This document shows positions 27,573 to 46,370 of a DNA stretch of 64,000 bases, in pieces (position 1 is the first letter of the stretch; every line of letters begins with the position of its first letter). The translations under genes and the position numbers were made by a program. The notes beneath the pieces were generated by a model, which saw only the letters and a list, made by a program, of their open reading frames with translations, did not search any database and had not been told where the DNA came from. Source of the stretch: Paenibacillus hexagrammi (GTDB lineage Bacteria > Bacillota > Bacilli > Paenibacillales > NBRC-103111); assembly GCF_021513275.1 (NCBI RefSeq), contig NZ_CP090978.1, forward strand, positions 3,100,001 through 3,164,000, in the 5' to 3' direction.

Positions 27573-28354
27573 GTCCCCCTCCTCTGCCGTTTCAACTTGG
27601 GACATGCTTGGCAGTATTCGTTCACAGCCGATACTTGGAAATAAAAGCAGCACGTTGTTCGGGTGCGGTACTTAGATGAATGGTCACCTTCTCCCGTGAA
27701 TCTATAGAATCTGGCAAACGGATTGTACGATTCGCCAAACAGCTCTGCAGGCGCATGAGTGACTATATATTGAAAGTCATCCGCGGCCCTCTTCCTTCCC
27801 TCGCAATCCAATGCCGCATGAATTTTGTGCTCATACAGAGAATACAGGCGGACTGCCGCATTTTCCCATAAGATAGAGATCGGTGTTTGAGAAGCCTCGG
27901 CTAGCGTGCGCCATAGAACGGAAATTTGGTCTGCAAAGAGCCGTTTCAGCACTTGATCCCTATTCCTTTCTCTCTGATCTTCAGGTAAGCTGCTTACCTG
28001 AGACTTAGTCACATGCAAACCCGCTAGCCAGTGCCCCTTGCCGTCTTTGGACGGTACCAGGAAGGTATCCTCCAAGGCTGTATGCCACTCCTTGTTGTAC
28101 ACCGACATGGAATAAAGACTTGGAACTACCGACAAAAATGCATACCGTTTGGCAAACATCGAAGCTGTATGGATGCTTGAAGGGTATGACAGCTCTCGGG
28201 TCAGTGACGCTACATACTCGGAACAGCTTGAAGCTGTAAGCAAATGGGATACCGGCAGCCATTGTGCTTTGGTCGGAAGGGATCCTTCCGTCACACCAAA
28301 TTGTTCGGTCAAATTGTCCCATTCCTGATGATCAAACTTGGAAGGCACGCTCAT
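27569..28354 (-). CDS. FhuF-like ferric-siderophore reductase
   Basis: A cytoplasmic protein of 261 residues. Its C-terminus has the FhuF-type cysteine pattern CC-x11-C-x2-C (TTCCFYFQVSAVNEYCQACP) that binds a 2Fe-2S cluster; the region before it (NPFARFYRFTGEG) also fits the family. E. coli FhuF reduces iron in ferric hydroxamates; here the likely substrate is the locus product. Its ATG overlaps the stop of the first NIS synthetase, and its stop overlaps the exporter start, so it is embedded in the biosynthetic operon. In some annotations this would appear as an IucA/IucC C-terminal domain protein. Confidence 0.8.
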   Translation of the reverse strand: MSVPSKFDHQEWDNLTEQFGVTEGSLPTKAQWLPVSHLLTASSCSEYVASLTRELSYPSSIHTASMFAKRYAFLSVVPSLYSMSVYNKEWHTALEDTFLVPSKDGKGHWLAGLHVTKSQVSSLPEDQRERNRDQVLKRLFADQISVLWRTLAEASQTPISILWENAAVRLYSLYEHKIHAALDCEGRKRAADDFQYIVTHAPAELFGESYNPFARFYRFTGEGDHSSKYRTRTTCCFYFQVSAVNEYCQACPKLKRQRRGT

Positions 28355-30219
28355 GATCTGACCTTCATCGGATTTGGTATTTGTACGAACAAAGGGGTCT
28401 CTCCTCTCGACATCAAACAGCTTGTAAGGTTCGCTTTTGCCGGCAAATATTCGCTAAAGAGCAAATCCTCCACAGCATGCCGCATTCTAGCAGCAGCATC
28501 TTGCTCTTGCTCTTGCTCTTGCTCTTGCTCTTGCTCTTGCTCTTGCTCTTGCTCTTGCTCTTGCTCCTGCTCCTGCTCCTGCATTTGCTCCTGCTCCTGC
28601 ATTTGCTCCTGCAGCAGTTGCTGTACAATGCCCCAGTACTTCTCTTCCCGGTCGCTACTGTAAGAAGCGATCGTGTGAATCAACGAACCCAGGTGATTGA
28701 CGAAGTAGTAGTATTTCGTTCTCATCCAAGCCTCGGATGCTTCATACAGCACCGGGCTATTGTCCTCTAATATGCTGCCAATCCAACCAAACTCAGCGGC
28801 TTTGCTGCGGTCTATGCTCACTCCCTCCAGATCGCGCACGTAACAGCATGCCGGCCACCCCTCCTTCAGAGTGACAAGGGAGTTTTGCAAGTGAGCTTCA
28901 AAGCTAATTCCATATTCGGCCCAAAAGCGCAGCAGAGGGAGCATTGAAATCCGTAGATAACGTTCGAGCCAACAGCTCAGATCAGGAATCTCCGCACTAG
29001 CTTGCTCACGGATCACTTGAATCAGCTTAGGCTCGCACTTATCTGGTAAAGTCTCCAACAGGGATGCCAAAACAAATGTACGCTCAGCGTCCAGAGCCAT
29101 CGGGCGATAATTAACGGTAAAACTGGAAGCCATCAGAGCAAGCTCGGATTCTTGACGCGGCCCAGTGAAGCCCGTTTCCGATAAAATCCGAAAATGATCG
29201 GATGTGAGCAATGGGTTCAGCCGTTGGAGCAATCTCGCTGCATCCATCGTTCGACTGGCCTGCTCGTGAGTGTTTTCCCGAAGCAGATTGGTGATTCGAA
29301 CGTGCAAAGGCAGCTTATAGCCATATTGTGAATCTGGATCCCACACTGTTCTTATCGAAGAAGTGGGATATACAACAGGGCCATAAGAACCCAGCTCGAT
29401 GATGATTGACTTGCTGATCCACTGACGGACAGGGAGCTGATTCAACACATATTGAGCTTGCCATGGGTGCAGCGGCACAAGCGCATAATCCGTACATCGG
29501 TCACCTAGCTTTTGCCGAAGAGCTTCTTCCGCATCCGGTACTCTAGGAGGCGCTTCACCTTCAAGCCACTCCTCGTGCAGCTCCCGTTTACTGACTGCAA
29601 CATAATACAGCTGAAAGGTCGCTCCCCTCTCCGGAATGTAAGCAGCAAGCTCTGCATCATCGAATCCCTCCGTGCTTTTGGGATAAGGATGGAACGGATG
29701 TCCGAAGAACAAGCTTTGTTCAGAGCTTATAAAGTCCAGCGAACACTTTCGGCTTGATTCCTCCAGGCATAAATAGTGCTCCATATGCAGGCTCATCTTG
29801 CGAAAGCTGTTGCTGATTCGGGATTGAATCAGCTCTGCGTGTTCTTCCCGTAAATCCGGAGCATCTTGAGAGCTTACTTCTTGGATCAATAGTGCCATCA
29901 GCTCGTGCAGCTTCAGTTGCCGATGTTCTCCACCTTCTCGCAGTATATACAGCTCAGGTCCGTACCGATGTTGGCCCATTGCTGAGAAGTAAACGATTTC
30001 GCCCAAGATGATAACCCCAGCTGTGGGCAGCTTCAAATGAAATACGTTCTTCCTTACATCTCCTGTACGCCCCTCTTCGTGGTAAGCAGCGTTCGATTCT
30101 CGAGGATCGACTACTCCCATTTCCCTGCAATAGCAATTGAGCAAAGCCCGAATTGACGCGCTTTCAGCAAGCTCCATACTCTGTGCAGAAGCATCGGTGC
30201 TCGTTCGCAGCAGAAGCAT
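28351..30219 (-). CDS. NIS siderophore synthetase (IucA/IucC family), first, with a Glu-Gln repeat
   Basis: A synthetase of 622 residues. FGHPFHPYPKSTEGF, YALVPLHPWQAQYVLNQL, YPTSSIRTVWDPDSQYGYKLPLHVRITNLLREN and FEAHLQNSLVTL are family hallmarks, and LPAKANLTSCLMSRG…NPM is the conserved C-terminal end. A run of about eighteen Glu-Gln or Met-Gln pairs lies near residues 535-572, just before that end. It is encoded by a hexanucleotide repeat and is not part of the family core. GGGGAGGAG precedes the ATG. The gene follows the aminotransferase by 70 nt and is coupled to the FhuF-like gene. Confidence 0.93.
   Translation of the reverse strand: MLLLRTSTDASAQSMELAESASIRALLNCYCREMGVVDPRESNAAYHEEGRTGDVRKNVFHLKLPTAGVIILGEIVYFSAMGQHRYGPELYILREGGEHRQLKLHELMALLIQEVSSQDAPDLREEHAELIQSRISNSFRKMSLHMEHYLCLEESSRKCSLDFISSEQSLFFGHPFHPYPKSTEGFDDAELAAYIPERGATFQLYYVAVSKRELHEEWLEGEAPPRVPDAEEALRQKLGDRCTDYALVPLHPWQAQYVLNQLPVRQWISKSIIIELGSYGPVVYPTSSIRTVWDPDSQYGYKLPLHVRITNLLRENTHEQASRTMDAARLLQRLNPLLTSDHFRILSETGFTGPRQESELALMASSFTVNYRPMALDAERTFVLASLLETLPDKCEPKLIQVIREQASAEIPDLSCWLERYLRISMLPLLRFWAEYGISFEAHLQNSLVTLKEGWPACCYVRDLEGVSIDRSKAAEFGWIGSILEDNSPVLYEASEAWMRTKYYYFVNHLGSLIHTIASYSSDREEKYWGIVQQLLQEQMQEQEQMQEQEQEQEQEQEQEQEQEQEQEQEQEQDAAARMRHAVEDLLFSEYLPAKANLTSCLMSRGETPLFVQIPNPMKVRS
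28501..28611. repeat. Hexanucleotide tandem repeat coding for poly(Glu-Gln)
   Basis: Eleven perfect TTGCTC units occupy 28501-28566, followed by diverged CTGCTC, CTGCAT and TTGCTC units to about 28611. On the coding strand each unit encodes Glu-Gln or Met-Gln. The unit length is a multiple of three, so slippage would change protein length without breaking the frame. Confidence 0.95.
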
Positions 30220-34262: not shown

Positions 34263-35117
34263 TTAAACGTCAAATTCGAGCTGTTTTTTTGCCGAAGCAA
34301 TAAACTCTAACGGTGAGGATATTTCCTCGTGATGATATTCTACTGCACCGATCTTGAGAATGAGCTCAACGCGATATTTCTCCGCAAACTCCGTTCGGTT
34401 CCTCTCATCAATTCTGGAACGCAGGCGTTCGATCACAATGTTGGCTCCGGGCCGGTCCGTAAATAACAGCATCCCCCACATTGGGTTATCTTTGTTCAAG
34501 AGGTACAAGGAATCGTTCGTCCGGATACTGGTCTGGCCCATCTTGGACAAATCCTGTACGGCCTCCATGAGCTGCTCTTCCCCGATCATCCGCTTGATCT
34601 CGTCCCAATATTTGACACTAAGCACCATCAGCGTTAATGGGATGTGATATCGAACCGATAACGCCATAAAGACGGTCGCATCATTTTGAAAGGACAATGT
34701 ATTCTTTAAACTCGTCTTGGCATCAACGGTCGCCAGAGACTCATTGGCTTTCTTCAGCTGCTCATTCTCCTGCTGCAATTGGCGGTTACCTAGAGTAAGC
34801 ATCCAGGTTGAAACTGTAAACATCGGTGTCATGATCAGCCAAAAATAATTCTGCGTGTTGATTACGCCCCCCACCACAACCGTATGGTAAAGTGTGTAGG
34901 TGCCGTAACCGAAGATAAACAAGATGTTCAAAATCAAACCTGTCGTAACGGTTGTAAAATAAGTGACGACCGCAATCAGAAACGCCGCGTTAAGGAAAAT
35001 AATATTTTGAATATACAAATCGGGGTTTCCTGCGGTGAACACAATGCTAATAAAACAACACAGGATGAGCAGCAGGAAGGCGCCATCCGAAATCATACTG
35101 TTTCGAAAGCGATTCAT
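34263..35117 (-). CDS. YdaK-like membrane protein with degenerate GGDEF domain (c-di-GMP receptor)
   Basis: A protein of 284 residues with four or five N-terminal membrane helices (to about residue 115), a short coiled coil (LQQENEQLKKANESL) and a GGDEF-type domain. The GGDEF active site reads NKDNP, so cyclase activity is not expected. The inhibitory-site motif RxxD is kept (RTND) at the canonical distance, so c-di-GMP binding is likely. B. subtilis YdaK has exactly this make-up and switches on exopolysaccharide production. Its ATG overlaps the end of the BcsB-like gene. Confidence 0.8.
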   Translation of the reverse strand: MNRFRNSMISDGAFLLLILCCFISIVFTAGNPDLYIQNIIFLNAAFLIAVVTYFTTVTTGLILNILFIFGYGTYTLYHTVVVGGVINTQNYFWLIMTPMFTVSTWMLTLGNRQLQQENEQLKKANESLATVDAKTSLKNTLSFQNDATVFMALSVRYHIPLTLMVLSVKYWDEIKRMIGEEQLMEAVQDLSKMGQTSIRTNDSLYLLNKDNPMWGMLLFTDRPGANIVIERLRSRIDERNRTEFAEKYRVELILKIGAVEYHHEEISSPLEFIASAKKQLEFDV

Positions 35118-37207
35118 CGGCGATTCCCCCGCATCCTTCTATATTTGCGAACCATGAGCAGCAGCGAGAACAGAATAAGCACTGCCACAAGCACCGCGGC
35201 TGCCATGAATCCAAGGACATCCACGCGCTGCACAATATCGCTAAGCACGGTAGACGGCTCAGCTGTCGCAATTTGCTTAAAGCGAAATGCTTGGACATGG
35301 CCGTCCTTATCCGTGACCGCGCCATCTCCGAACACCTGCCATAGTGTGCCCTCTGATCCAATCAGCTTTGAAGCCAAATATGTATATTCCGAAGCGCTGC
35401 CCGTCACAGCCAGCATGCCGTAGCCATTCTCATAAGGAGAATTGATGAGCTGAAGAGTACCGATTCTGGTCCCGTAGCCCGATTCAATGCTCATTTTTTC
35501 ATTCGATACAAAGCCTCGGCCATTCTCATCATATTGGAAGTACAGCTTGTCGTTATTGTCACGTATGGCCTGGTTGCTCTGGTAGCTGCCTATGGCGATG
35601 ATCTGCCGTCCCTTCAGCAGCTTGGCGTCTACGCTGTCCGTATAATAAAGGACCTCCCCTGTGTTCGTTTGCGCGTAGCGGCCCAGCAGGTTAAACACAT
35701 TGGTCAGGGTCTGGAACAGATACGCATCATGCTCCTTCGGCAGTATGACAGCGACCTGATTAAAGCTGCCGTCCCGCAAAAACGGATACGGATAATTGTT
35801 AAACAGCAGGTCCGCACGGTCTTTGGTATTGAGCTGCAGCATGGAATCCTTCTCCACAAAGGCCCAAGGCATCTGTTCCTGGTTCTCGATACATCCCCCG
35901 TTCTTCAGTTCGAGGTCAAACGCCAGCTTCACCGTAAAGTTGCCGCTGATATTCAGTGTCTTGGGGATGATAAGATCCATATGATCGCCATCTGCCAGCT
36001 CGGTGGAAAGCTTCTTGCTGCCAATAGGCGTATCATTGACCAAAACGGTGACTAAGGATCGGTCAAAATCGAGATTTCTTGCATATCGGAACTTAACACT
36101 CAGCTTGGTTGCATCCGCGATAGAACGATTGCCCGGAAGCGCGATAAAATAAGATTTTTCCCGGTGACGATCGCCGACGAGTTTGTCACCCGTTTCGGTC
36201 AAACTCACATTGCGGCTTACTTCAGCCGGAGGCGTGTCCACCTCTGTTGAGCTGTCTACCTGCTTGGAGGCAGAATCGATCTGGCTCAGCAAAGACTGAT
36301 TCGCTGCCAGACGAGCGGCTTTTATGAGCATTCCCGGATCGACTGATGTGATCAGCAAGATAGGCTGATCCGATTCAGTGACTAGCTGAATGATCGCTTG
36401 ATTATTCACATCAGCGCTCGCGACCTGCGATTTCAGTTCAGCCGGCAGATTCTCGTACAGTGATACCATTACAACAGCCTGTTTGCCCTGTAGCTTACCG
36501 GTATCGTAAGCAATCAGGGGAATCGGTTTATCCGAAACCGGATTGGCTCTAGCGAATCCAGCCAATACATATGTAGCCGCTTCTAACTCTTCAGGACTGC
36601 TTCCCTCAGGCACGGCAATCACACTCAGACCTTCCTTGACGGTATCAAGACCGATAAACCGCGTGTTGAAATCCCGAATACGAAGCTGAATCGGATGTTG
36701 GGTATAATTGACGTTTACGCGGGAGCTTTTCGCAATTTGCAGCCAATTATCCCGTGTATCGATGGGTACGCAGGCCATGATGGCTGCAGGGCTGGTCGTT
36801 TCCAGATGCCCTTGTATGGTCAACGTGTTGACACCTTGGATGAGAAGCTCCACAGGCACATTCACGGTGATCTGCTGCTGACCCGCAGCTTCACTGGTCG
36901 GACGGAACGAATAAAACGGTGTTCCGTTCATTTGCAGTGTGATACTAGAACGGTCATTTTGTGTTAATTGGGATATTGTATAGTCCAGATGAACATCCAC
37001 ACTGGCTACATCCCAATACGATTCCACTTGAAAATATTGCTGTGTATACGTCATGCCTCCGGATAAGGAGGTATCGCTGAAGTTCGTTTGATATTGACGC
37101 TGGCTTGCTGTCAGGCCGTCTTCTGCGAACACCGGACTCAGCTGCAGGAACAGCAGGAGCAAGCTGAGCGCTGCGATCCAAATCGTTCGTATTCTCATCA
37201 TAATCAC
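35114..37207 (-). CDS. BcsB/YdaN-like exopolysaccharide synthesis protein
   Basis: A secreted, membrane-anchored protein of 697 residues. It has an N-terminal signal (residues about 5-28, ending SPVFAED) and a C-terminal membrane helix (VLGFMAAAVLVAVLILFSLLLMV) with a basic tail. Two sugar-binding-like beta domains with the NTLTIQGHLET-type pattern are in keeping with cellulose synthase regulatory subunits. It lies between the glycosyltransferase and the GGDEF receptor gene, as in ydaMNK. It probably accompanies the nascent polysaccharide outside the membrane. Confidence 0.85.
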   Translation of the reverse strand: MIMMRIRTIWIAALSLLLLFLQLSPVFAEDGLTASQRQYQTNFSDTSLSGGMTYTQQYFQVESYWDVASVDVHLDYTISQLTQNDRSSITLQMNGTPFYSFRPTSEAAGQQQITVNVPVELLIQGVNTLTIQGHLETTSPAAIMACVPIDTRDNWLQIAKSSRVNVNYTQHPIQLRIRDFNTRFIGLDTVKEGLSVIAVPEGSSPEELEAATYVLAGFARANPVSDKPIPLIAYDTGKLQGKQAVVMVSLYENLPAELKSQVASADVNNQAIIQLVTESDQPILLITSVDPGMLIKAARLAANQSLLSQIDSASKQVDSSTEVDTPPAEVSRNVSLTETGDKLVGDRHREKSYFIALPGNRSIADATKLSVKFRYARNLDFDRSLVTVLVNDTPIGSKKLSTELADGDHMDLIIPKTLNISGNFTVKLAFDLELKNGGCIENQEQMPWAFVEKDSMLQLNTKDRADLLFNNYPYPFLRDGSFNQVAVILPKEHDAYLFQTLTNVFNLLGRYAQTNTGEVLYYTDSVDAKLLKGRQIIAIGSYQSNQAIRDNNDKLYFQYDENGRGFVSNEKMSIESGYGTRIGTLQLINSPYENGYGMLAVTGSASEYTYLASKLIGSEGTLWQVFGDGAVTDKDGHVQAFRFKQIATAEPSTVLSDIVQRVDVLGFMAAAVLVAVLILFSLLLMVRKYRRMRGNRR

Positions 37208-37240
37208 TCCTACAACTTACTCGGGCGGATATTATTTGCG

Positions 37241-38491
37241 TTAGAATCTCTCCGTTTTGTACCATTTCGCTTCTCTCTTATAGATGAGATCCTTGATATA
37301 GGCATACATGCCGTACGCGGCGACAACCATCCACATTTGGCAGTAAGACACATACATAAGCAGAATGATCCAAAGATTAGACAGCCGCATTTCCCCTTTT
37401 TCCGTAACAAGTGTAATGAAGGTTCCTACTACAAATAACGTAATAGCCAGCACCCATAAGAAGGAGCTAAAACCCGCAATCGTAGTTGTGACATAGCCCA
37501 GTGCATGCAAAATCAGGAGCAAATCCGACATGACCAGAGATGTCAGCAGCAGAAAGTAAATCGACAAAAAATACAAGATATCGAAGCGTATATTGCGGGC
37601 CGATCGCTCGAAGAGGAGCGGGATATTTTTGACAATGACGTAGATATTTCCCTTCGCCCACCGCGTTCGCTGCTTGAACCATACCTTGACGGTCTGGGGC
37701 TCTTGCTCCCAGGTAACGGCTTTAGGCTGAAACTTGATCCGGTAGCCCATCATATAAATGCGGAAGCTGATCTCTGTATCTTCGGCTATCGCTTTCACAT
37801 CCCAGCCACCGATCCGTTCAACAATCTCGCGCCTCATAATAAAGTTGGTGCCTGGGATCGTGCAAAGCTTAAACAGCTTCCATCGTCCTGCTTGCGCCAT
37901 CCATTGAAAGGACAAGGTTTCTACATTAATGAATCGAGTTAATAGATTGGCGTCCCTGTTCCGTGTCCGGAATTTTCCGATAACAGCACCGAGTGTTGGA
38001 TCATTTGTAATTTCCGAAACTAAGTAAAGCAGCGCTTTTTTCTCAGGTGTGTTGTCTGCATCGTAGATGGCTATGAGCTCGCCTTTGGCTTGCTGAAAAC
38101 CCAGATTTAGCGCATTCGACTTGCCTTTCCCCCCGGTTACAGCATCCGTATTGATGATCGTGAGCTGTCTCCCTGGGTATTTGTTCTGCAATCCTGCTAG
38201 CAGCACACGGCTGTTATCAGAAGAATTGTCATTTATGACGATAATTTCATAGCTCTCATGCGGGTATTCCAGCGCGAGCAAGGCTTCAACCGTCTGGGTA
38301 ATGACCTTGCCCTCGTTATGGGCCGGCACCATGATGGTCACAAATGGCGGCTCGCCTTGCAAAGGAGGCACCGGCTTATTCTCGATTTGCATATAGTACA
38401 GGTAACCCGCGACAATTAATACGACATTGACCAGCAGGAGAGTCCAGATGCAAATGACAGAAACAAGCATAAGAATATCTGCGACGGTCAT
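37241..38491 (-). CDS. Family 2 glycosyltransferase, membrane polysaccharide synthase (YdaM-like)
   Basis: A processive-type glycosyltransferase of 416 residues. One N-terminal helix (residues about 5-30) precedes the GT2 domain, with IIVINDNSSDNS, IAIYDADNTPEKKA (DxD), AEDTEISFR and the product-site QRTRWAKGN. Three to four membrane helices follow at the C-terminus, including the SFLWVLAITLFVVGTFITL segment. The start overlaps the stop of the YdaL-like gene. It is the catalytic centre of the operon; the sugar polymer is unknown. Confidence 0.9.
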   Translation of the reverse strand: MTVADILMLVSVICIWTLLLVNVVLIVAGYLYYMQIENKPVPPLQGEPPFVTIMVPAHNEGKVITQTVEALLALEYPHESYEIIVINDNSSDNSRVLLAGLQNKYPGRQLTIINTDAVTGGKGKSNALNLGFQQAKGELIAIYDADNTPEKKALLYLVSEITNDPTLGAVIGKFRTRNRDANLLTRFINVETLSFQWMAQAGRWKLFKLCTIPGTNFIMRREIVERIGGWDVKAIAEDTEISFRIYMMGYRIKFQPKAVTWEQEPQTVKVWFKQRTRWAKGNIYVIVKNIPLLFERSARNIRFDILYFLSIYFLLLTSLVMSDLLLILHALGYVTTTIAGFSSFLWVLAITLFVVGTFITLVTEKGEMRLSNLWIILLMYVSYCQMWMVVAAYGMYAYIKDLIYKREAKWYKTERF

Positions 38492-40074
38492 AACTCTCTC
38501 CTATAATTCGTATATTTTCGTTTATACAGGCGGTAACCGATGATTAGAAATGCGACAAAAATAAGAAGCGTTGACAAGATTAACACGATGAAAATGTTAT
38601 TTTGCACAGAAAACAGCGTTGTTAAACTTTTCTTTCCTTCATCCACGTATACATGCTCCGCACTCACGTCCTGCATCGCATCATTCATTTGGATAGACTG
38701 GCCGTTCACACTCAAATGTCCGCTTTTCGATTCCATCTTGTTCGTATCAGTCTGTACGCGGTGTGTCTCATTCTTGTAGTCCGAATAAGCAGTCCAGTCC
38801 GATTGCAGCTTGTCCATGAGTACTTGCAAGCCCTTCTTATCCGTTGGGAAAGCATACACTACAGCTGTATTCATCGGCAGCGGATTTCTAATCTGCTGAT
38901 CCTTGGTGTATAGCTCCAAATCCGCTTCCCCGATCGTGTAGATCGATGTTGCAAAAGCTCTTGAGGTATTTGATGGATTTCGAGCTAAAACCCGCTCATT
39001 CGGGAACACGATACCGGAATCAAAAAAAGTCAAGCCATCCGCAGCATAATGCTGATCGAAAGTCCAATATAGCTCTGTACCAATCCCCAATGGCACGACT
39101 CCATAACCAGCCAGAGCGTCCAGGAAAGCACTCATCTCCGATTTCAGCACCGTCATGTCCTGAGTAATTGTTGAAGCTACGACCGGAGCATTCACGACGA
39201 TGCTTCCGTTGCGGGATTGCACATGCTTCAGAGTCTCCAGGTAGCGGGTCATGGACGGATAATCGAGATGACTTAGCACAGGCTGCACACTCACAATAAA
39301 AGGAATGCCGGCATCATAGAGCTTGTCCGCCATATCACTCAGCATATCCAAATCAGAGAATGGATAAATATCATGAAACACGACATACTGGTGCGTGGCC
39401 GATGTTATCCCCAGCCAATCCTTCAGCACATAGGAGATTCCCAGCTCGCTTACGTTACCTTTGACCATGTAGGGAATATAAGCGACATTTCCGTTCATGA
39501 TGCCAAACGGCACAGACCTTCCTAGCGCTTCAGAAGTAACGCTGCCGTACGATGTGCCGGAGTAATTGGTAATGTAAGACATATTCTGAACAGGAACCGA
39601 GCTTTGCGAAAGCTGCCCGATTGTCAGATTGATCGTATCATTTACTGTTTGATCTTCCTCTAGCTGCAATTGCTGCCTGGAGGCTTCGGGTAGATGAGCG
39701 CCGATATGCATATAGGCTCCATGATACGCAGCGAAGTCTTCCTCATACTGCTCAGGCAGCATGGTCAAATCCGCCGCGTTACGTACAGCTATCACTTTCT
39801 TGTACTTAGCAAGGGTTCCCGCTTCATAACTGTCAAACGATGTAACCGTAACTTGAGCTCCAAATGCTGCAAGTACCCGCTCCAGCGCCTCTATATTTCC
39901 TTCTTCCGGTGTTCCGACCCCCATGCTGTCATACATCAGCAAAATGGCTGAGTCTTGGGTGCTTACAGGATCCTCATCCGCGGCCCAGACCTTGGAAAGC
40001 GGGGTGCCAAGGCATAAGCATAGACACAGAACCATACCTACGATCCAGCATTTACGTGTCCAGTGTTGGCGCAA
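38488..40074 (-). CDS. YdaL-like DUF2334 protein (polysaccharide-deacetylase fold)
   Basis: A secreted and membrane-anchored protein of about 528 residues. The N-terminal signal ends near SKVWAADED, and a C-terminal helix (IFIVLILSTLLIFVAFLIIGY) is followed by a basic tail. The middle contains VFHDIYPFSDLDMLSDMADKLYDAGIPFIVSVQPVLS, characteristic of DUF2334 proteins with the NodB-like barrel. The start is uncertain: AGGAGG lies 8 nt before a TTG at 40074, whereas the GTG at 40083 overlaps it, so I prefer the TTG. The gene overlaps the end of the upstream membrane-protein gene. Confidence 0.82.
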   Translation of the reverse strand: MRQHWTRKCWIVGMVLCLCLCLGTPLSKVWAADEDPVSTQDSAILLMYDSMGVGTPEEGNIEALERVLAAFGAQVTVTSFDSYEAGTLAKYKKVIAVRNAADLTMLPEQYEEDFAAYHGAYMHIGAHLPEASRQQLQLEEDQTVNDTINLTIGQLSQSSVPVQNMSYITNYSGTSYGSVTSEALGRSVPFGIMNGNVAYIPYMVKGNVSELGISYVLKDWLGITSATHQYVVFHDIYPFSDLDMLSDMADKLYDAGIPFIVSVQPVLSHLDYPSMTRYLETLKHVQSRNGSIVVNAPVVASTITQDMTVLKSEMSAFLDALAGYGVVPLGIGTELYWTFDQHYAADGLTFFDSGIVFPNERVLARNPSNTSRAFATSIYTIGEADLELYTKDQQIRNPLPMNTAVVYAFPTDKKGLQVLMDKLQSDWTAYSDYKNETHRVQTDTNKMESKSGHLSVNGQSIQMNDAMQDVSAEHVYVDEGKKSLTTLFSVQNNIFIVLILSTLLIFVAFLIIGYRLYKRKYTNYRREL

Positions 40075-41578
40075 AGCCTCCACCTCCTAACCGTTTCGCC
40101 TTTGTTTCCGTTTCTTCATCCTTTTCATTACTCCACAATCTGCGTCCAAGCAGGTCGCCAACGATTGCGAATGAAACCATATCGAACGTGATATTAAATA
40201 AAAACTCATGCTTGGCGATGTCAGCGTCCCCTGCTCCAATGATGGAAACGATGATTCCGGAAACCCCCATGCCCATCATCATGAGCAATAATGGTAATCT
40301 CGTGGTCTTCCGGTAGAGTCTCGTCCTGAATGCGGTGACGAAGGATGGCGAATATAACCCGACCGTTACCAGCACCCAAAGTATGACAAAACCAAATGTC
40401 TTAGGTGCTAGCTTATCCTTCAATAGACTGTAACCCGAGAAGAAATAAGTTTGCGCTCCAAAAGGCTTTCCCGTCTGCTGTTCATAATTCCCCATTGCTT
40501 TGGGCCTGATCGTAAAACCGTCCTGCGCGGCGATATTCAGCATCTTCGCGGCTTGATCAGGGTGTGCCGCATAATAAACGAGTATAGAACCGAAGCCGTA
40601 TTTATCGTAAAAATTGTCCTGCAGCTGCTTCGAGTTCACATCTACAGTAGAGTAAGGATCGTAGTAGAGGCTGTCGTTCAGGATTGCGTACTGTTTGTCG
40701 ATTCCGAATGATTCCAGGGCCTTCTCCGGGTCCGGAGAATTCATCAGCACACCTCGGGTCATCGCATGATACTTATTAATATTGACGAATTCTTTGGGAA
40801 TGAGCACATACGTGCCGATTCCGGCCGCCAGCATGGTGGTTAGGGCGATCACGGTTATCGTTTGATACCACTTGGTATTGCGAATGAACCAGAAGCCAAT
40901 TCCAAACACAGCCGCGATGATGCCTACCGGTGCGTTTTGCTGTTTACTCGTTGTTAAGATCACACTGCTCGTTACAAATAGTGCTAGCATGACATAATCG
41001 TTGTAACGTTTACGGTATAGCAGCAGCCCCGCCGAGAACATGAACATGCTCATGATCAACACGACACTCTCGCTGTAAAAGGAATTAAAATAAGCGGTGT
41101 ACCCTGTGTCGCCAAATATAAAAACCGCAATTCCTGCAAGCACATACCCTCTTTTTCTGGAAGTCTTCCATGTGACAGCTTCAACAATCAGATAGACGGC
41201 TGCCGTATATAAGACCATATAAATCGCAGCCTGATAACGGATATCGAAGGTTTGCGAGTCATGAAATAAGTGATTTAAGAATAATGCCGCTTTAATGAAC
41301 ATCGATTGCGAGGAGAATAACGTCGCCCCGTTCTCGTTATAATACTGATAAATGCCATAATCTTTAACAAAGTACCCGAGGTACTTGCTGGTATAATCCG
41401 GATCGTTAAAATAAATTCCGTTGCTGTACAGAATTCGGAAATAGTCACCGTTATCCGCCATTCCGATAAACGGAGATGTAAACAAAGCGATGATCGTAAT
41501 GAGCAGCACTCCGATAGCAGCTGCGGCAGCAGGCGTCATCGTTCCCATGACCCTCCGTACCGCACGGATATTGAGCAT
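40052..41578 (-). CDS. Polytopic membrane protein, possible GT-C-type glycosyltransferase (WsfD-like)
   Basis: A 508-residue protein with about ten to twelve hydrophobic helices and an extracellular loop after the first (ADNGDYFRI…). The early Asp-rich loop, the aromatic-rich first loop and the helix pattern resemble membrane hexose transferases of the GT-C type, but I cannot name a firm family. It stands between YdaJ-like and YdaL-like genes, and is not part of the B. subtilis ydaJKLMN set as I know it. It probably modifies the exopolysaccharide. Confidence 0.6.
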   Translation of the reverse strand: MLNIRAVRRVMGTMTPAAAAAIGVLLITIIALFTSPFIGMADNGDYFRILYSNGIYFNDPDYTSKYLGYFVKDYGIYQYYNENGATLFSSQSMFIKAALFLNHLFHDSQTFDIRYQAAIYMVLYTAAVYLIVEAVTWKTSRKRGYVLAGIAVFIFGDTGYTAYFNSFYSESVVLIMSMFMFSAGLLLYRKRYNDYVMLALFVTSSVILTTSKQQNAPVGIIAAVFGIGFWFIRNTKWYQTITVIALTTMLAAGIGTYVLIPKEFVNINKYHAMTRGVLMNSPDPEKALESFGIDKQYAILNDSLYYDPYSTVDVNSKQLQDNFYDKYGFGSILVYYAAHPDQAAKMLNIAAQDGFTIRPKAMGNYEQQTGKPFGAQTYFFSGYSLLKDKLAPKTFGFVILWVLVTVGLYSPSFVTAFRTRLYRKTTRLPLLLMMMGMGVSGIIVSIIGAGDADIAKHEFLFNITFDMVSFAIVGDLLGRRLWSNEKDEETETKAKRLGGGGFAPTLDT

Positions 41579-41600
41579 AATCGAGCCCCCTTATGGATAA

Positions 41601-42720
41601 CTAATACGTATAAGCGAGCAGCGCCATCACATTATCGAATGAATAGGCCTGCTTGCTGCGGGTGTCGCCGAACCCCCCTCCAGTTCACTGTTTGTGTCAT
41701 TGATTTGAAATTTGTTCATTTGTTCGATGCTTGATTCATAGAGCTCCTGATCGCCGGTCACCGATCCAATCATCGCCGTAATCGCATAAATGGCCGTGGA
41801 TCTTATATCTGTAAGGGGCACCCCTTCTGCAGAATATTTACCATATAAAGTACCTTCCTTCACATGCTGCTTCAAATAGGCCATGCTTTCAGGACGCTGC
41901 TGATGTACTTCCGCCAACGATAGAATCGTTAACAAGGATTCCACGGTATTGATGTCTTGGGATTGATAGGATTTAGAATGATAATCATACCGTGTTTGAT
42001 AAAAAGGAACTCATCCGAGAGATATCCAGACGTTACAATACCCGTCATCTTGTTTACCAGCTCGTCTTTTTTATTGGTTGGGATAGGAAGCGTTTCGAGG
42101 GTCTTCAAGTCGACATAGCATAAGGTAATAAATGAATTAAGCGTATGATAGGTCTCATCGTAGAAATCATAGAGATAGCCGTCTTTGACGTTATACGTAT
42201 ACAAACGAGCAGCGAAGGATTCGAATTCAGCCTTGTATTTGTCGGTTTGAAAAGCCTTATCCGCTTCATACAGCGCCCGAATTATTCTCAGATCGTCAAC
42301 TGCCGCGTTTAAAGTGTAATGCTTATGAAGCAGTGGACTATAGCGATAGCTGAATCCGGTATTCATGTTAAAGGTACTTTTGGCCAAAGCCCACTCCGAA
42401 TCGAACTTCGTTTGTTCGCCGTTAAGCGCGTAGTACCGCATCATAACTCCAGCAGACTCACTAAGCACTTCGTGTCCGGATGCGGCTTCACCGCTTTGAC
42501 CGGTCTCTTGCAAATTGGTATAGATCCCGTAACTTCCGGATAGCCTGCCTGTAATGAAGCGATACAGCTTATCTTTATGATCAGCGACATGTGTGGAACT
42601 TCCGTATGATGCCGACGAAATCCACTGAGAATCTTTCTCAAATAAACCATCAGCCTGGCAGCCCGACAACGATAGCATGACAACAAGTCCGCCGAGCATC
42701 AAGCTTTTGTGCACCAACAT
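41601..42720 (-). CDS. YdaJ-like lipoprotein, glycoside-hydrolase-like, two frameshifts
   Basis: A lipoprotein of about 373 residues after repair. The lipobox LSLSGC is near residue 21. The remainder is an alpha/alpha-barrel-like repeat region (SESAGVMMRYYALNGEQTKFDSEWALAKSTF, GFSYRYSP, AAVDDLRIIRALYEAD), which recalls family 8 glycosidases and YdaJ. The frame breaks in the A/G run 42001-42007 and the C-run 41673-41678, each one base short; the true end is the TAG at 41601. It is the first gene of the operon and may trim the polymer. Confidence 0.78.
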
Positions 42721-42951: not shown

Positions 42952-44405
42952 TTATAAGATAGGCGAAATCAGTTTGGAAATGGATTCGAGGAATCGTATC
43001 CGCAGTGATCGTTTCTCATATTCTTCCAGAGTTAACTCTAGACATCCATTCATGTCGTTCCAAAAAATGCGTTCCAACGCGCCAGCAGTATCTGCGTCAT
43101 ACATCAAGGCATTCGTTTCAAAATTTAACCGCAGACTGCGTATATCAAAGTTGGCCGTTCCCACTGATGCGATCCTGCCGTCAACGACAATGGTTTTGGC
43201 ATGCAAAAAGCCCTGATCGTACAAGTAGCATTTTACTCCCGCTTGAAGCAGCTCCCCCACATAATACAATGATGCCCAGTGCACGAACAAATGATCGGAT
43301 TTCTGCGGGATCATGATTCTCACATCTATGCCTGACAGCGCTGCGATCCGCAAGGCGTTCAACATGCTCTCCTCCGGAATGAAATAAGGAGTCTGCAGCA
43401 AGATCCGGTGCTTAGCGGCATGAATCATCTTCAGGAACGTATAGACGAAGTGCGGCCACTTCTCGTTGGGACCGCTTGCGATAATTTGAATCGGCACATG
43501 GCCGTTCGCAGGTAACTCTGTTCGATTAGGGAAAACCAATCCATCCATCTCGATGGGAGAAGAGGATGCCAAATTCCAGTCTAAAATAAAGCGTGCTTGA
43601 AGCGCCCTAACTACACTGCCTGTCAGCCTCAAATGAGTATCACGCCAAAAGCCGAACCGCGGATCCTTACCCAGATATTCATTGCCGATATTGAAGCCGC
43701 CCATGTATCCGGTAACCCCATCAATGATGACCAGCTTACGGTGATTGCGGTAATTGACCCGATAATTTAAATAGGGGATTCTGGACGGAAAGAATGCGGC
43801 TACTTCTCCGCCTGCCCGTACAAACTCCCGAAAAAAGAATCCTTCAATGATCTTGAACCGATATCATCGTACAGGAATCTAACCTGCACGCCCTCTTTCG
43901 CTTTCTTGGTTAATGCATCCATCACCCTATGACCCAACGAGTCGTTCTTGACGATGTAATACTGCATGTGAATATGCGACCGGGCTTCTTCGATTTTGCT
44001 CAATAAATCGTTAAATTTGCTAATACCATCTGTGAAAATGTGCACAAGATTGTCCTGCGTCAAAAAGGAATCGTTGGTTGATACGTTCAAATAGATCAAA
44101 TCCCGGTACGGCGCCATCTCCGGATGAGAATCGAGCAATCTACCTTCGGATAACTGCCTGGCTTGCTCCGAGATCATCATATCGACCCGATCTTGCATCT
44201 TCTTATTCCATTTATAGAGCTTTCTACGGCTTAAATTTTGTCCTAAAATTACATACAGAATGAAGCCTAGTATCGGGATAAAAAGCAGCACCATGAGCCA
44301 TGACCAAGTCGCCGCGACATTGCGCCGCTCCAAAAACACCACGGCCAGCGCCAACAAAATATTGATTGGGAACAACATGCTGAATATATGGGATACCCAT
44401 TCCAT
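42952..44405 (-). CDS. cls: Cardiolipin synthase, one frameshift
   Basis: A membrane phospholipase-D-type enzyme of about 484 residues that joins two phosphatidylglycerols. Two N-terminal helices (residues about 7-25 and 35-55, with AATWSWLMVLLFIPILGFILYVILG) precede two HKD motifs: NHRKLVIIDG, encoded in the gap around 43730, and HAKTIVVDGRIASVGTANFD. The frame breaks at the A-run 43831-43836, one base short, just before the first motif; repair gives the normal family length. It appears monocistronic, between two terminator hairpins. Confidence 0.92.
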
Positions 44406-44619: not shown

Positions 44620-46256
44620 TTATCCAACGATTTTGCCGTCCCACGGAAGACCCTGTTGGTACCGGTTTTTATCGTTATTGCGCCAAGGAGCCAGCGCCAA
44701 TGGATCATACATATCCCATATCTCGCAGCGATCCTCGTGAGAGCCGCTTGCTTCTAGAATTGCATTGACTGCTCTTCTCGCGGCTTCATTCGCGCTCTCC
44801 ATCGTCGCTAAATCCGTATTGGTCCTCACATAATCGGAAGCTAAATAAAAATTAGGAATGGCTGTATACGCATTCGGACGCAAATACCATGTGTTCACTT
44901 TGTTCACTAGCAGCGGCTCCAAGTTAATCGCTTCATGCGGGTTCGGGAACTGGATGTCCGAATCGAGGAACCAGTCAACTAACTGGTCATCATTCAATAC
45001 ATCCGCGCCTCCGGCGTTCAAGCTTCGCTTGACCTGCTCCCACACTTCATTCTTGATTTCTTCCTTGCTGCAGGCTATGGCAGGCTTGCCATACAAAATG
45101 CCAGGGGACTGCCAATCCGAAATATCTACGGAAAGAATCCCCTGAACTGACCCGTCGCCATACCGGCTCAAATTAATTCCGCCCAGAACTGGGCCTGTGA
45201 AACGGATGTCAACGCCCACGGACTGTCCATATAAATGACATGGCCGTGAATCACCTTTACATCCTCGTTCAAATAAAATTGAATACCGTTCATCCAATCG
45301 ACAGACGAAGCCAGCGTTTGAATTCCTGATAGCGTTGCATCCGCTTGAAGCATATCACGGCTTATCAGCGGTGCCATAACCTCCACAGGGAGCGCAGATA
45401 CATAATAATCTCCCTCTACTGTCATGGTGATTCCATTCTCTTCAATATCAATACCGGTAACTCGTCCATTCGAGCAGTGAATCGCCGTCACCTTCGCTTG
45501 AAGGTGATAGTCTACCCCGCTACCGGTTAGATAATCAAGCCATGGCTGAATCCACACCTCATTGGTTGGCCCGCACAGAAGTCTGTCTGCACTTGAACCG
45601 GGAGTGACCATGTCCATCATGAGTGTTGCCCCAACCGTACCGATGGTTCCTGTATTTGCTTCCCTTGCTTTAGCTGCAACCAAAATGCGCGTGAGCCCTG
45701 TGAATACCTTACGGAACGCATCCGACTGCTTGTCCGCCTCAATGAAATCCCACCAGGCGATGCGCTGATATTCAAGCAGCCTCCGCTCATCACAACTGGT
45801 CATCACCTGCCAGAGACGGGATACGTACTGCTCCACATCATGCTCGCTAAGCCCAAGATTATTGTCAAATATGGATTTGATTACTGTCTTCCAATCCTGA
45901 AAGGTCCTCGGAAATTCCGCCATAAAAGGCAGCATCTCCCGATCAAAAAAAGCAAGCCCCAGCTCGGAGCCTTCCACCAGATTATCAAATACCCCATGCC
46001 GGTTATCACCATAGGGAATTCGTTTCATGGTGTCGGTAATGTGCCTATAAAACTTAGGAAAAAATCGAAACCCATGCTCGCCCGGCAAATCACGCCTGCC
46101 TTCCGTTCCCGAGTTCGGTACCGGCATGCTCCTTGCCTTACCGCCGGGAATCGATTTCAATTCATAAACGGCTACTTGAAAGCCTCTTTCCACCAATTCA
46201 TGCGCTGCGCTCATACCGGCGACTCCACCGCCAAGAATCACTACTTTGCTGCTCAT
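44620..46256 (-). CDS. FAD-dependent oxidoreductase, phytoene desaturase/hydroxysqualene-dehydroxylase-like, one frameshift
   Basis: A flavoprotein of about 545 residues after repair. The N-terminal Rossmann motif KVVILGGGVAGMSAAHEL and the following GFQVAVYELKSIPGGKARS are typical of the amine-oxidase/carotenoid-desaturase superfamily; FRFFPKFYRHITDTM and YYVSALPVEVMAPLIS also fit. The frame breaks near 45174-45177, with one base missing in AAATTAATT; correction joins FWAEF to NLSRYGDGSVQG. I chose the ATG at 46256, with GGGGGAG 5 nt upstream. No isoprenoid gene is nearby, so the substrate is open. Confidence 0.75.
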
Positions 46257-46370
46257 CTGCTCTCCCCCTGTCCAAGCTACAATGTTTCTATTCCATATAT
46301 TAGAAGAGGGATTGGCAAATAACAACATATTTTTACAAAATTCTTGTTATTTCGACTCTCGTCCCATATG

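Follow-up and report, generated by a model that had tools for sequence, protein, structure and literature searches.

Which exopolysaccharide system is encoded by a compact operon of Paenibacillus hexagrammi, and does the protein specified by its last gene bind cyclic diguanosine monophosphate (c-di-GMP) without synthesizing it? The operon lies on the minus strand at 34263-42720 of the window, as the whole analysed stretch of 64,000 nucleotides is called here (NCBI RefSeq assembly GCF_021513275.1, contig NZ_CP090978.1, positions 3,100,001 to 3,164,000 of the forward strand), and consists of six closely spaced genes in the order J-D-L-M-N-K, with K last. Two known systems offer themselves for comparison, ydaJKLMN of Bacillus subtilis and pssA-E of Listeria. 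As judged from sequence comparison and analogy, the operon very probably encodes a Pss-type exopolysaccharide synthase gated by c-di-GMP, in which K acts as the receptor. Its features are the following:

J, 41627..42720, minus strand: GH126-like hydrolase with a lipoprotein-type signal, frameshifted twice as assembled
D, 40052..41578, minus strand: predicted polytopic hexosyltransferase of the WsfD family (NCBIfam NF051875, E=1.2e-184); counterpart of Listeria pssA
GMADNGD of D (residues 39-45), 41444..41464, minus strand: candidate catalytic loop
L, 38488..40083, minus strand: DUF2334-like protein (PF10096), hydrophobic segments near both ends by hydropathy; in the place of YdaL/PssB
M, 37241..38491, minus strand: processive-type GT2 polysaccharide synthase (PF13641, E=1.8e-35); DAD, ED and QRTRW present
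N, 35114..37207, minus strand: BcsB-like partner (PF03170, E=4.1e-45)
K, 34263..35117, minus strand: 284 amino acids (aa), four predicted N-terminal helices and a degenerate GGDEF domain; proposed c-di-GMP receptor, PssE counterpart
RTND of K (residues 199-202), 34512..34523, minus strand: primary I-site, RxxD, five residues before NKDNP
NKDNP of K (residues 208-212), 34482..34496, minus strand: replaces GG(D/E)EF in the K sequence

Relation to the Listeria Pss system

The initial annotation, made from the letters alone, had delimited the operon correctly, and its GT2, BcsB-like and membrane GGDEF genes are borne out by Pfam (PF13641, PF03170 and PF00990). All five kinds of component that it listed are present, the DUF2334 protein below the curated cut-off; the sixth gene, D, had been overlooked, and the lipoprotein hydrolase-like gene, J, exists but does not read as a single open frame. 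The other five genes are full length in the window.

Listeria loci were found with a stretch of PssZ as query against named genomes (PssZ being, as we take it, the product of lmo1913), which gave nine loci, eight of them in Listeria. Three of those eight genomes, L. marthii, L. ilorinensis and L. fleischmannii, were searched and the operon region was taken from each. All three carry the five genes in the order D-L-M-N-K found in the window, with a WsfD-family gene (E=7e-133 to 7e-170) at the place of pssA. The published Listeria order, with the GT2 gene pssC, the BcsB gene pssD and the receptor gene pssE last, agrees with this as far as the excerpted text of PMC4125290 goes. Identities between the window and L. 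marthii, L. ilorinensis and L. fleischmannii, in this order, are 74, 74 and 73% for M, 48, 50 and 51% for K, 46, 47 and 44% for D (44% being that of the larger piece), 42, 40 and 41% for N, and 31, 28 and 29% for L. The pssA-place gene of L. fleischmannii (L211) is split in two pieces, possibly through decay of the decoration function or an assembly error. Two features set the window apart from Listeria: a GH126-like hydrolase gene heads the operon, and the signature of K reads NKDNP as against DKDDA in PssE of L. monocytogenes.

A maximum-likelihood tree of 50 M proteins points the same way. A branch with support 100/99 parts a Pss side, comprising 32 Pss-type rows from the window's bacterial order, the three Listeria proteins and that of genome G177, from 14 yda-type rows, of which three (L166, L167 and L176) are labelled by M and N only. 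The yda side, like the yda-type K proteins compared, consists of proteins from other genomes than B. subtilis, whose YdaM and YdaK themselves are not among them, and ten yda-type loci (L069-L078) are left out of the tree since their M genes run off the stretch taken. The position of Listeria within the Pss side is weakly supported (55/69). G177, which also has D, is intermediate, with 32% identity to the window in K and 53% in M; its locus (L143) shows a third arrangement, D-K-L-M-N, and its very diverged synthase falls on the Pss side of the tree. By gene order, the additional WsfD gene, the identities and the synthase tree, the operon is placed with Listeria pssA-E and not with B. subtilis ydaJKLMN, so that the label 'YdaJKLMN-like' of the initial annotation gives way to a Pss-type assignment.

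The arrangement is widely shared among relatives of the host. K was searched for in 99 genomes of the window's family, its own included, and matched in 66 at E<=0.001. A full-length relative is found in 31 (51-100% identity, E<=2e-98), and a distant match in 17 more (21-25% identity, E<=5e-10), 16 of these in open frames 289-323 aa long and the other in one of 679 aa. Regions were taken for all 30 orthologous loci outside the host's own genome (L039-L068) and for ten of the 17 distant ones (L069-L078). N and K are adjacent in 30 of the 30 orthologous loci, and the order D-L-M-N-K holds in all 29 testable relatives, one further contig ending early; J is present as a single open frame of 374-441 aa in 27 of the 29 testable loci and missing from L039 and L055. 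K is also matched in six genomes of a second family in this order, and both of those fetched contain the whole operon. The Listeria Pss system is thereby extended to 31 of the 99 sampled genomes of this family and to six genomes of the other family, which provides further hosts for asking how a dead GGDEF domain may activate a synthase that has no PilZ domain. Our literature search found no Paenibacillus c-di-GMP exopolysaccharide or PssE operon of this kind.

The degenerate GGDEF protein K

K matches PF00990 weakly but over the cut-off (Pfam, E=5.9e-7). As the initial annotation had pointed out, NKDNP stands in place of GGDEF and RxxD is kept at the correct distance, RTND at residues 199-202 being separated by five residues from NKDNP at 208-212. 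The pattern was followed through 59 K homologues, namely the 31 Pss-type proteins of the family (window included) and 28 others: ten from the distant family loci, two from the other family of the order, three from Listeria, that of G177 and twelve further yda-type proteins. RxxD occupies the I-site column in all 59 (31/31 and 28/28), and an intact GG(D/E)EF occurs in none of them. R199 and D202 are among only 13 invariant columns of an alignment of 30 K sequences (A1) that reaches down to 19% identity. Relative to seven GG(D/E)EF paralogues of the same genome (eight loci were taken, of which L002, without a GG(D/E)EF frame, was left out), the DxD-type, ND and GGDEF positions of K are all substituted.

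The AlphaFold2 model of K (mean predicted local distance difference test score, pLDDT, 81; predicted template modelling score, pTM, 0.52) comprises four N-terminal helices and a GGDEF domain. It superimposes on c-di-GMP-bound GGDEF structures with Z of about 20 and a root-mean-square deviation (rmsd) of 2.0-2.4 over about 150 residues, for instance on GcbC (5euh; Z 20.2, rmsd 2.0, 150 residues) and PleD (1w25; Z 19.4, rmsd 2.1, 154 residues). The predicted fold is consistent with a receptor role, although a shared fold by itself does not demonstrate binding. When K was compared by sequence with solved structures, no chain called YdaK or PssE was among the 43 GGDEF-type and other chains listed.

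What binding without synthesis could look like is indicated by the two known systems. In PssE of L. monocytogenes, RxxD is followed after five residues by the dead signature 208-DKDDA; the protein binds c-di-GMP with a Kd of 0.79 uM and about two molecules per protein, and is required for exopolysaccharide formation (PMC4125290, excerpt). YdaK of B. subtilis, which is ascribed the same receptor role, carries RxxD at 202-205 and, five residues further on, SDERI (PMC5422440 and PMC7064775, excerpts). Loss of the cyclase signatures, the invariant I-site, the predicted GGDEF fold, the 48-51% identity to the proteins at the PssE place in Listeria and the c-di-GMP binding of L. monocytogenes PssE together make K a well-supported candidate for a receptor that binds c-di-GMP without synthesizing it, in line with the logic of the initial annotation. 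Against the assignments made so far stand a warning of the tree program, by which the long branches of G177 (1.66, above all) and L176 (0.77) may be joined wrongly, and the choice of the 59 K homologues by profiles spanning the I-site region, which leaves the RxxD count partly dependent on the motif itself.

The signal could be supplied by the cell's own cyclases. The genome has 42 GGDEF matches, the K of the window among them and some being pieces of one gene. A frame of 381 aa (G000:C1:4831591-4832556) combines a 5TM-LYT match with a following GGDEF match, which is the architecture of B. subtilis DgcK, and Listeria DgcA and DgcB are described as DgcK orthologues (PMC5422440, excerpt). This frame is possibly the natural partner of K.

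The operon could then work in the following manner: c-di-GMP made by other GGDEF proteins of the cell would bind the RTND site of K, and bound K would change shape and switch on the synthase M and the BcsB-like N within the membrane. That K is the activator of M is suggested by the lack of a PilZ domain in M itself; no Pfam match to PilZ was obtained at E<=0.1 anywhere in the operon, M included. M would make and extrude a beta-linked amino-sugar chain, by analogy with Listeria poly-N-acetylmannosamine (poly-ManNAc), to which D, acting outside the membrane, would attach a branching hexose carried by polyprenyl phosphate, and J would trim the polymer, unless its frameshifts are real. In the window, no c-di-GMP riboswitch or other known RNA scored above the Rfam gathering scores, and the promoter search, with 10 sites found as against 15.8 expected from shuffles, is not informative.

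Gene D and the side sugar

Operons of the Pss kind are already known, and the most useful new inference from this locus is a candidate role for D and its counterpart PssA as branch transferase. D scores 614 bits against the NCBIfam profile 'glycan biosynthesis hexose transferase WsfD' (NF051875), for which the curated cut-off is 80 bits. Judging by gene order in its relatives, which were compared in place of lmo0527 itself, pssA of L. monocytogenes should be the WsfD-family gene as well. In its predicted extracytoplasmic role D would act on a polymer like that of Listeria, whose beta-1,4-ManNAc backbone bears alpha-1,6-galactose at every second residue (PMC11439720, PMC5422440 and PMC5039582, excerpts). 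In the S-layer glycan of P. alvei, a branching glucose that is alpha-1,6-linked to ManNAc needs WsfH and WsfD, and WsfD has been proposed to be a transferase using a lipid carrier, putatively an alpha-1,6-glucosyltransferase to ManNAc (PMC2943079, excerpt). D shares with WsfD the NCBIfam family named after it, to which it was assigned by the family profile; it differs in sitting with a GT2 synthase, the presumed task of WsfD being the decoration of an S-layer glycan with a donor made by WsfH (PMC2943079, excerpt).

Because the pssA-place gene belongs to the WsfD family, the Listeria polymer carries alpha-1,6-galactose on ManNAc and alpha-1,6-glucosyl transfer to ManNAc is the putative activity of WsfD, D becomes a candidate for the branch transferase of this exopolysaccharide, with chances that we put at even or marginally better. 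The more specific proposal stands at an even balance: D and Listeria PssA would move a hexose from polyprenyl phosphate in alpha-1,6 linkage to ManNAc outside the membrane; backbone synthesis would then be gated by c-di-GMP, and decoration would depend on a separate supply of lipid-linked sugar. If true, PssA/WsfD would be a named candidate for the side-sugar enzyme of a polymer that aids persistence of Listeria on produce. A link between PssA/WsfD and the branch sugar was not found in the literature searched, which excluded Koseoglu 2015, where it may be in print.

Sequence conservation and the predicted fold are compatible with such an activity. Residues A41, D42, N43, G44 and D45 are invariant in a 20-row alignment of D (A2), and the loop GxA(D/N)NGD recurs in 41 of 43 D homologues, and of the two without it one is a 3' fragment; the rows leave out L055 (54 aa) and L066 (off the contig). 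The model of D (mean pLDDT 73) has ArnT as its nearest match (Z 13.0, rmsd 4.9 over 283 residues), with PMT and ALG enzymes similar. Of the top 39 fold titles, 36 are enzymes or complexes that we class as users of lipid-linked sugars, presumably of the GT-C fold class, two are chains of GPI transamidase and one is a translocon entry.

Several observations count against this role of D. (i) pLDDT falls below 50 at residues 38-88, a segment that spans the candidate catalytic loop. (ii) The Z score declines smoothly from 13.0 to 6.9 at rank 39, the first unrelated row following at 6.1 over 68 residues, and a Foldseek search with the model gave no match at E<=0.001 (best E=0.015); as helical proteins can reach Z 13-14 without a clear relative, the fold match is support and not proof. 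(iii) D homologues, a second one of the same genome included, also occur away from BcsB genes, so the WsfD family is not specific to this polymer. (iv) The Yda polymer of B. subtilis binds a lectin for alpha-galactose/alpha-N-acetylgalactosamine (PMC13274460), and no WsfD-family match was found in the B. subtilis control, so that such a residue does not require D.

D may modify another glycan or serve export instead of transferring the branch, which is a serious alternative, if a somewhat less probable one. WsfD-family genes are over the cut-off in 18 of 299 genomes of the class, several of which lack a BcsB match or carry it on a different contig, and nothing matched in the operon by Pfam or NCBIfam points to a synthase of lipid-linked hexose; one GtrA-type match elsewhere in the genome is compatible with lipid-linked hexose, no more. 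What favours branch transfer over this alternative is the company that the gene keeps: D lies inside the operon in 29 of the 29 testable relatives (broken in L055) and in all three of the Listeria genomes examined (split into two in one of them), and it is found only on the Pss side of the synthase tree. The second WsfD-family gene of the genome (L158, G000:C1:6352163-6353503) is not beside L, M, N or K genes; its neighbours are, as we take them, spore-germination-like.

Hydrolase J and alternative readings of the operon

The integrity of the operon is called into question by J, and this is a further point against a functional Pss-type system in this strain. In a three-frame reading, J is made up of open reading frames (ORFs) at 41929-42720 and 41627-41944 with a tail in the third frame, which amounts to two frameshifts; a lipoprotein-type signal is recognized by eye at its start. 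Its family was assigned on an intact relative (L041) and not on the frameshifted copy. The L041 protein matches CPF_2247 (3REN) at E=1e-47 and is far closer to it than to PssZ (6R2M, E=2.7e-8), both of which are placed in GH126 (PMC7479077, excerpt), and the letters SES in an LSES context are kept in 27 of 27 intact J relatives. By these matches, the operon would join a Listeria-type core with a hydrolase encoded in the same operon.

It appears unlikely that the J frameshifts mark an operon in decay that no longer functions in this strain. A relative, L055 (genome G003), has no J, and its D and L are broken, which may reflect decay of the decoration function or an assembly error. In the window, D, L, M, N and K are whole, and the breaks in J coincide with or adjoin runs of T and of G, homopolymer runs being common sites of long-read errors. 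Apparent frameshifts cluster at 41.6-46.3 kb, where the next two genes upstream, a phospholipase-D family gene at 42952-44405 and a presumably oxidoreductase-like one at 44620-46328, each read as two ORFs. Split genes in the neighbourhood could be taken for general decay; yet because both neighbours look split along with J, sequencing error is at least as likely an explanation as decay. The first gene of the yda operon is, moreover, described as probably dispensable for exopolysaccharide formation (PMC13274460).

Assignment to the B. subtilis type, ydaJKLMN, is improbable, even though the same five functional kinds of protein (hydrolase, DUF2334, GT2, BcsB-like and I-site receptor) occur there, the receptor likewise having RxxD five residues before a dead motif, SDERI in YdaK (PMC5422440, excerpt). 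The hydrolase gene comes first in both; the glycosidase gene of L. monocytogenes, lmo1913, is instead part of the dgcA-dgcB operon (PMC4125290, excerpt). However, the receptor gene is second in ydaJKLMN and last in the window, and the window has a WsfD-family gene, a family without any match in the B. subtilis control. The yda-type loci are very distant in K, N and L, with identities to the window of 23-25% for K (L070, L139 and L146) and 20-23% for N, partly over short stretches; full-length M is 46% (L139 and L146) to 51% (L176) identical, the yda-type rows lying across the 100/99 branch from the Pss side. Operons of the yda type do exist in other genomes of the same family: the ten distant loci have the order J-K-L-M and no D in the stretch taken, which ends inside M. 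By the cut-offs used, Pss-type loci (31 of 99 genomes) and yda-type candidates (17 of 99, E<=5e-10) never occur together (P=0.0008, hypergeometric test, kinship not corrected for), a count in which the neighbourhood was checked in ten of the 17 candidates and three genomes with weaker matches in frames of that size were left uncounted.

Least probable of all is that K is a constitutive structural subunit of the synthase, insensitive to c-di-GMP and keeping RxxD for folding or protein contact, since L. monocytogenes PssE binds c-di-GMP (PMC4125290, excerpt), the motif is constant in all 59 homologues while the dead signature takes twelve forms among the 31 Pss-type proteins, and its presence in only four of the seven GG(D/E)EF paralogues indicates that the GGDEF fold does not require it, although the I-site arginine of B. 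subtilis YdaK is needed both for contact with DgcK and for the c-di-GMP response (PMC7064775, excerpt), so that conservation of RxxD could reflect contact.

L matches DUF2334 at E=4.3e-5 with 23.6 bits, below the curated Pfam cut-off of 26, and a DUF2334 match at E<=0.01 is obtained for 12 of the 17 L proteins scanned. In an alignment of L (A3), HGxxH is present in two of three yda-type rows and NGLTH in the third, and neither was found in the 13 Pss-type rows or in G177, which hints that a metal site may have been lost in the Pss lineage. Outside the operon, an ORF at 28351-30219 of the window, which we take to be siderophore-synthetase-like, carries a long Gln-Glu repeat towards its end.

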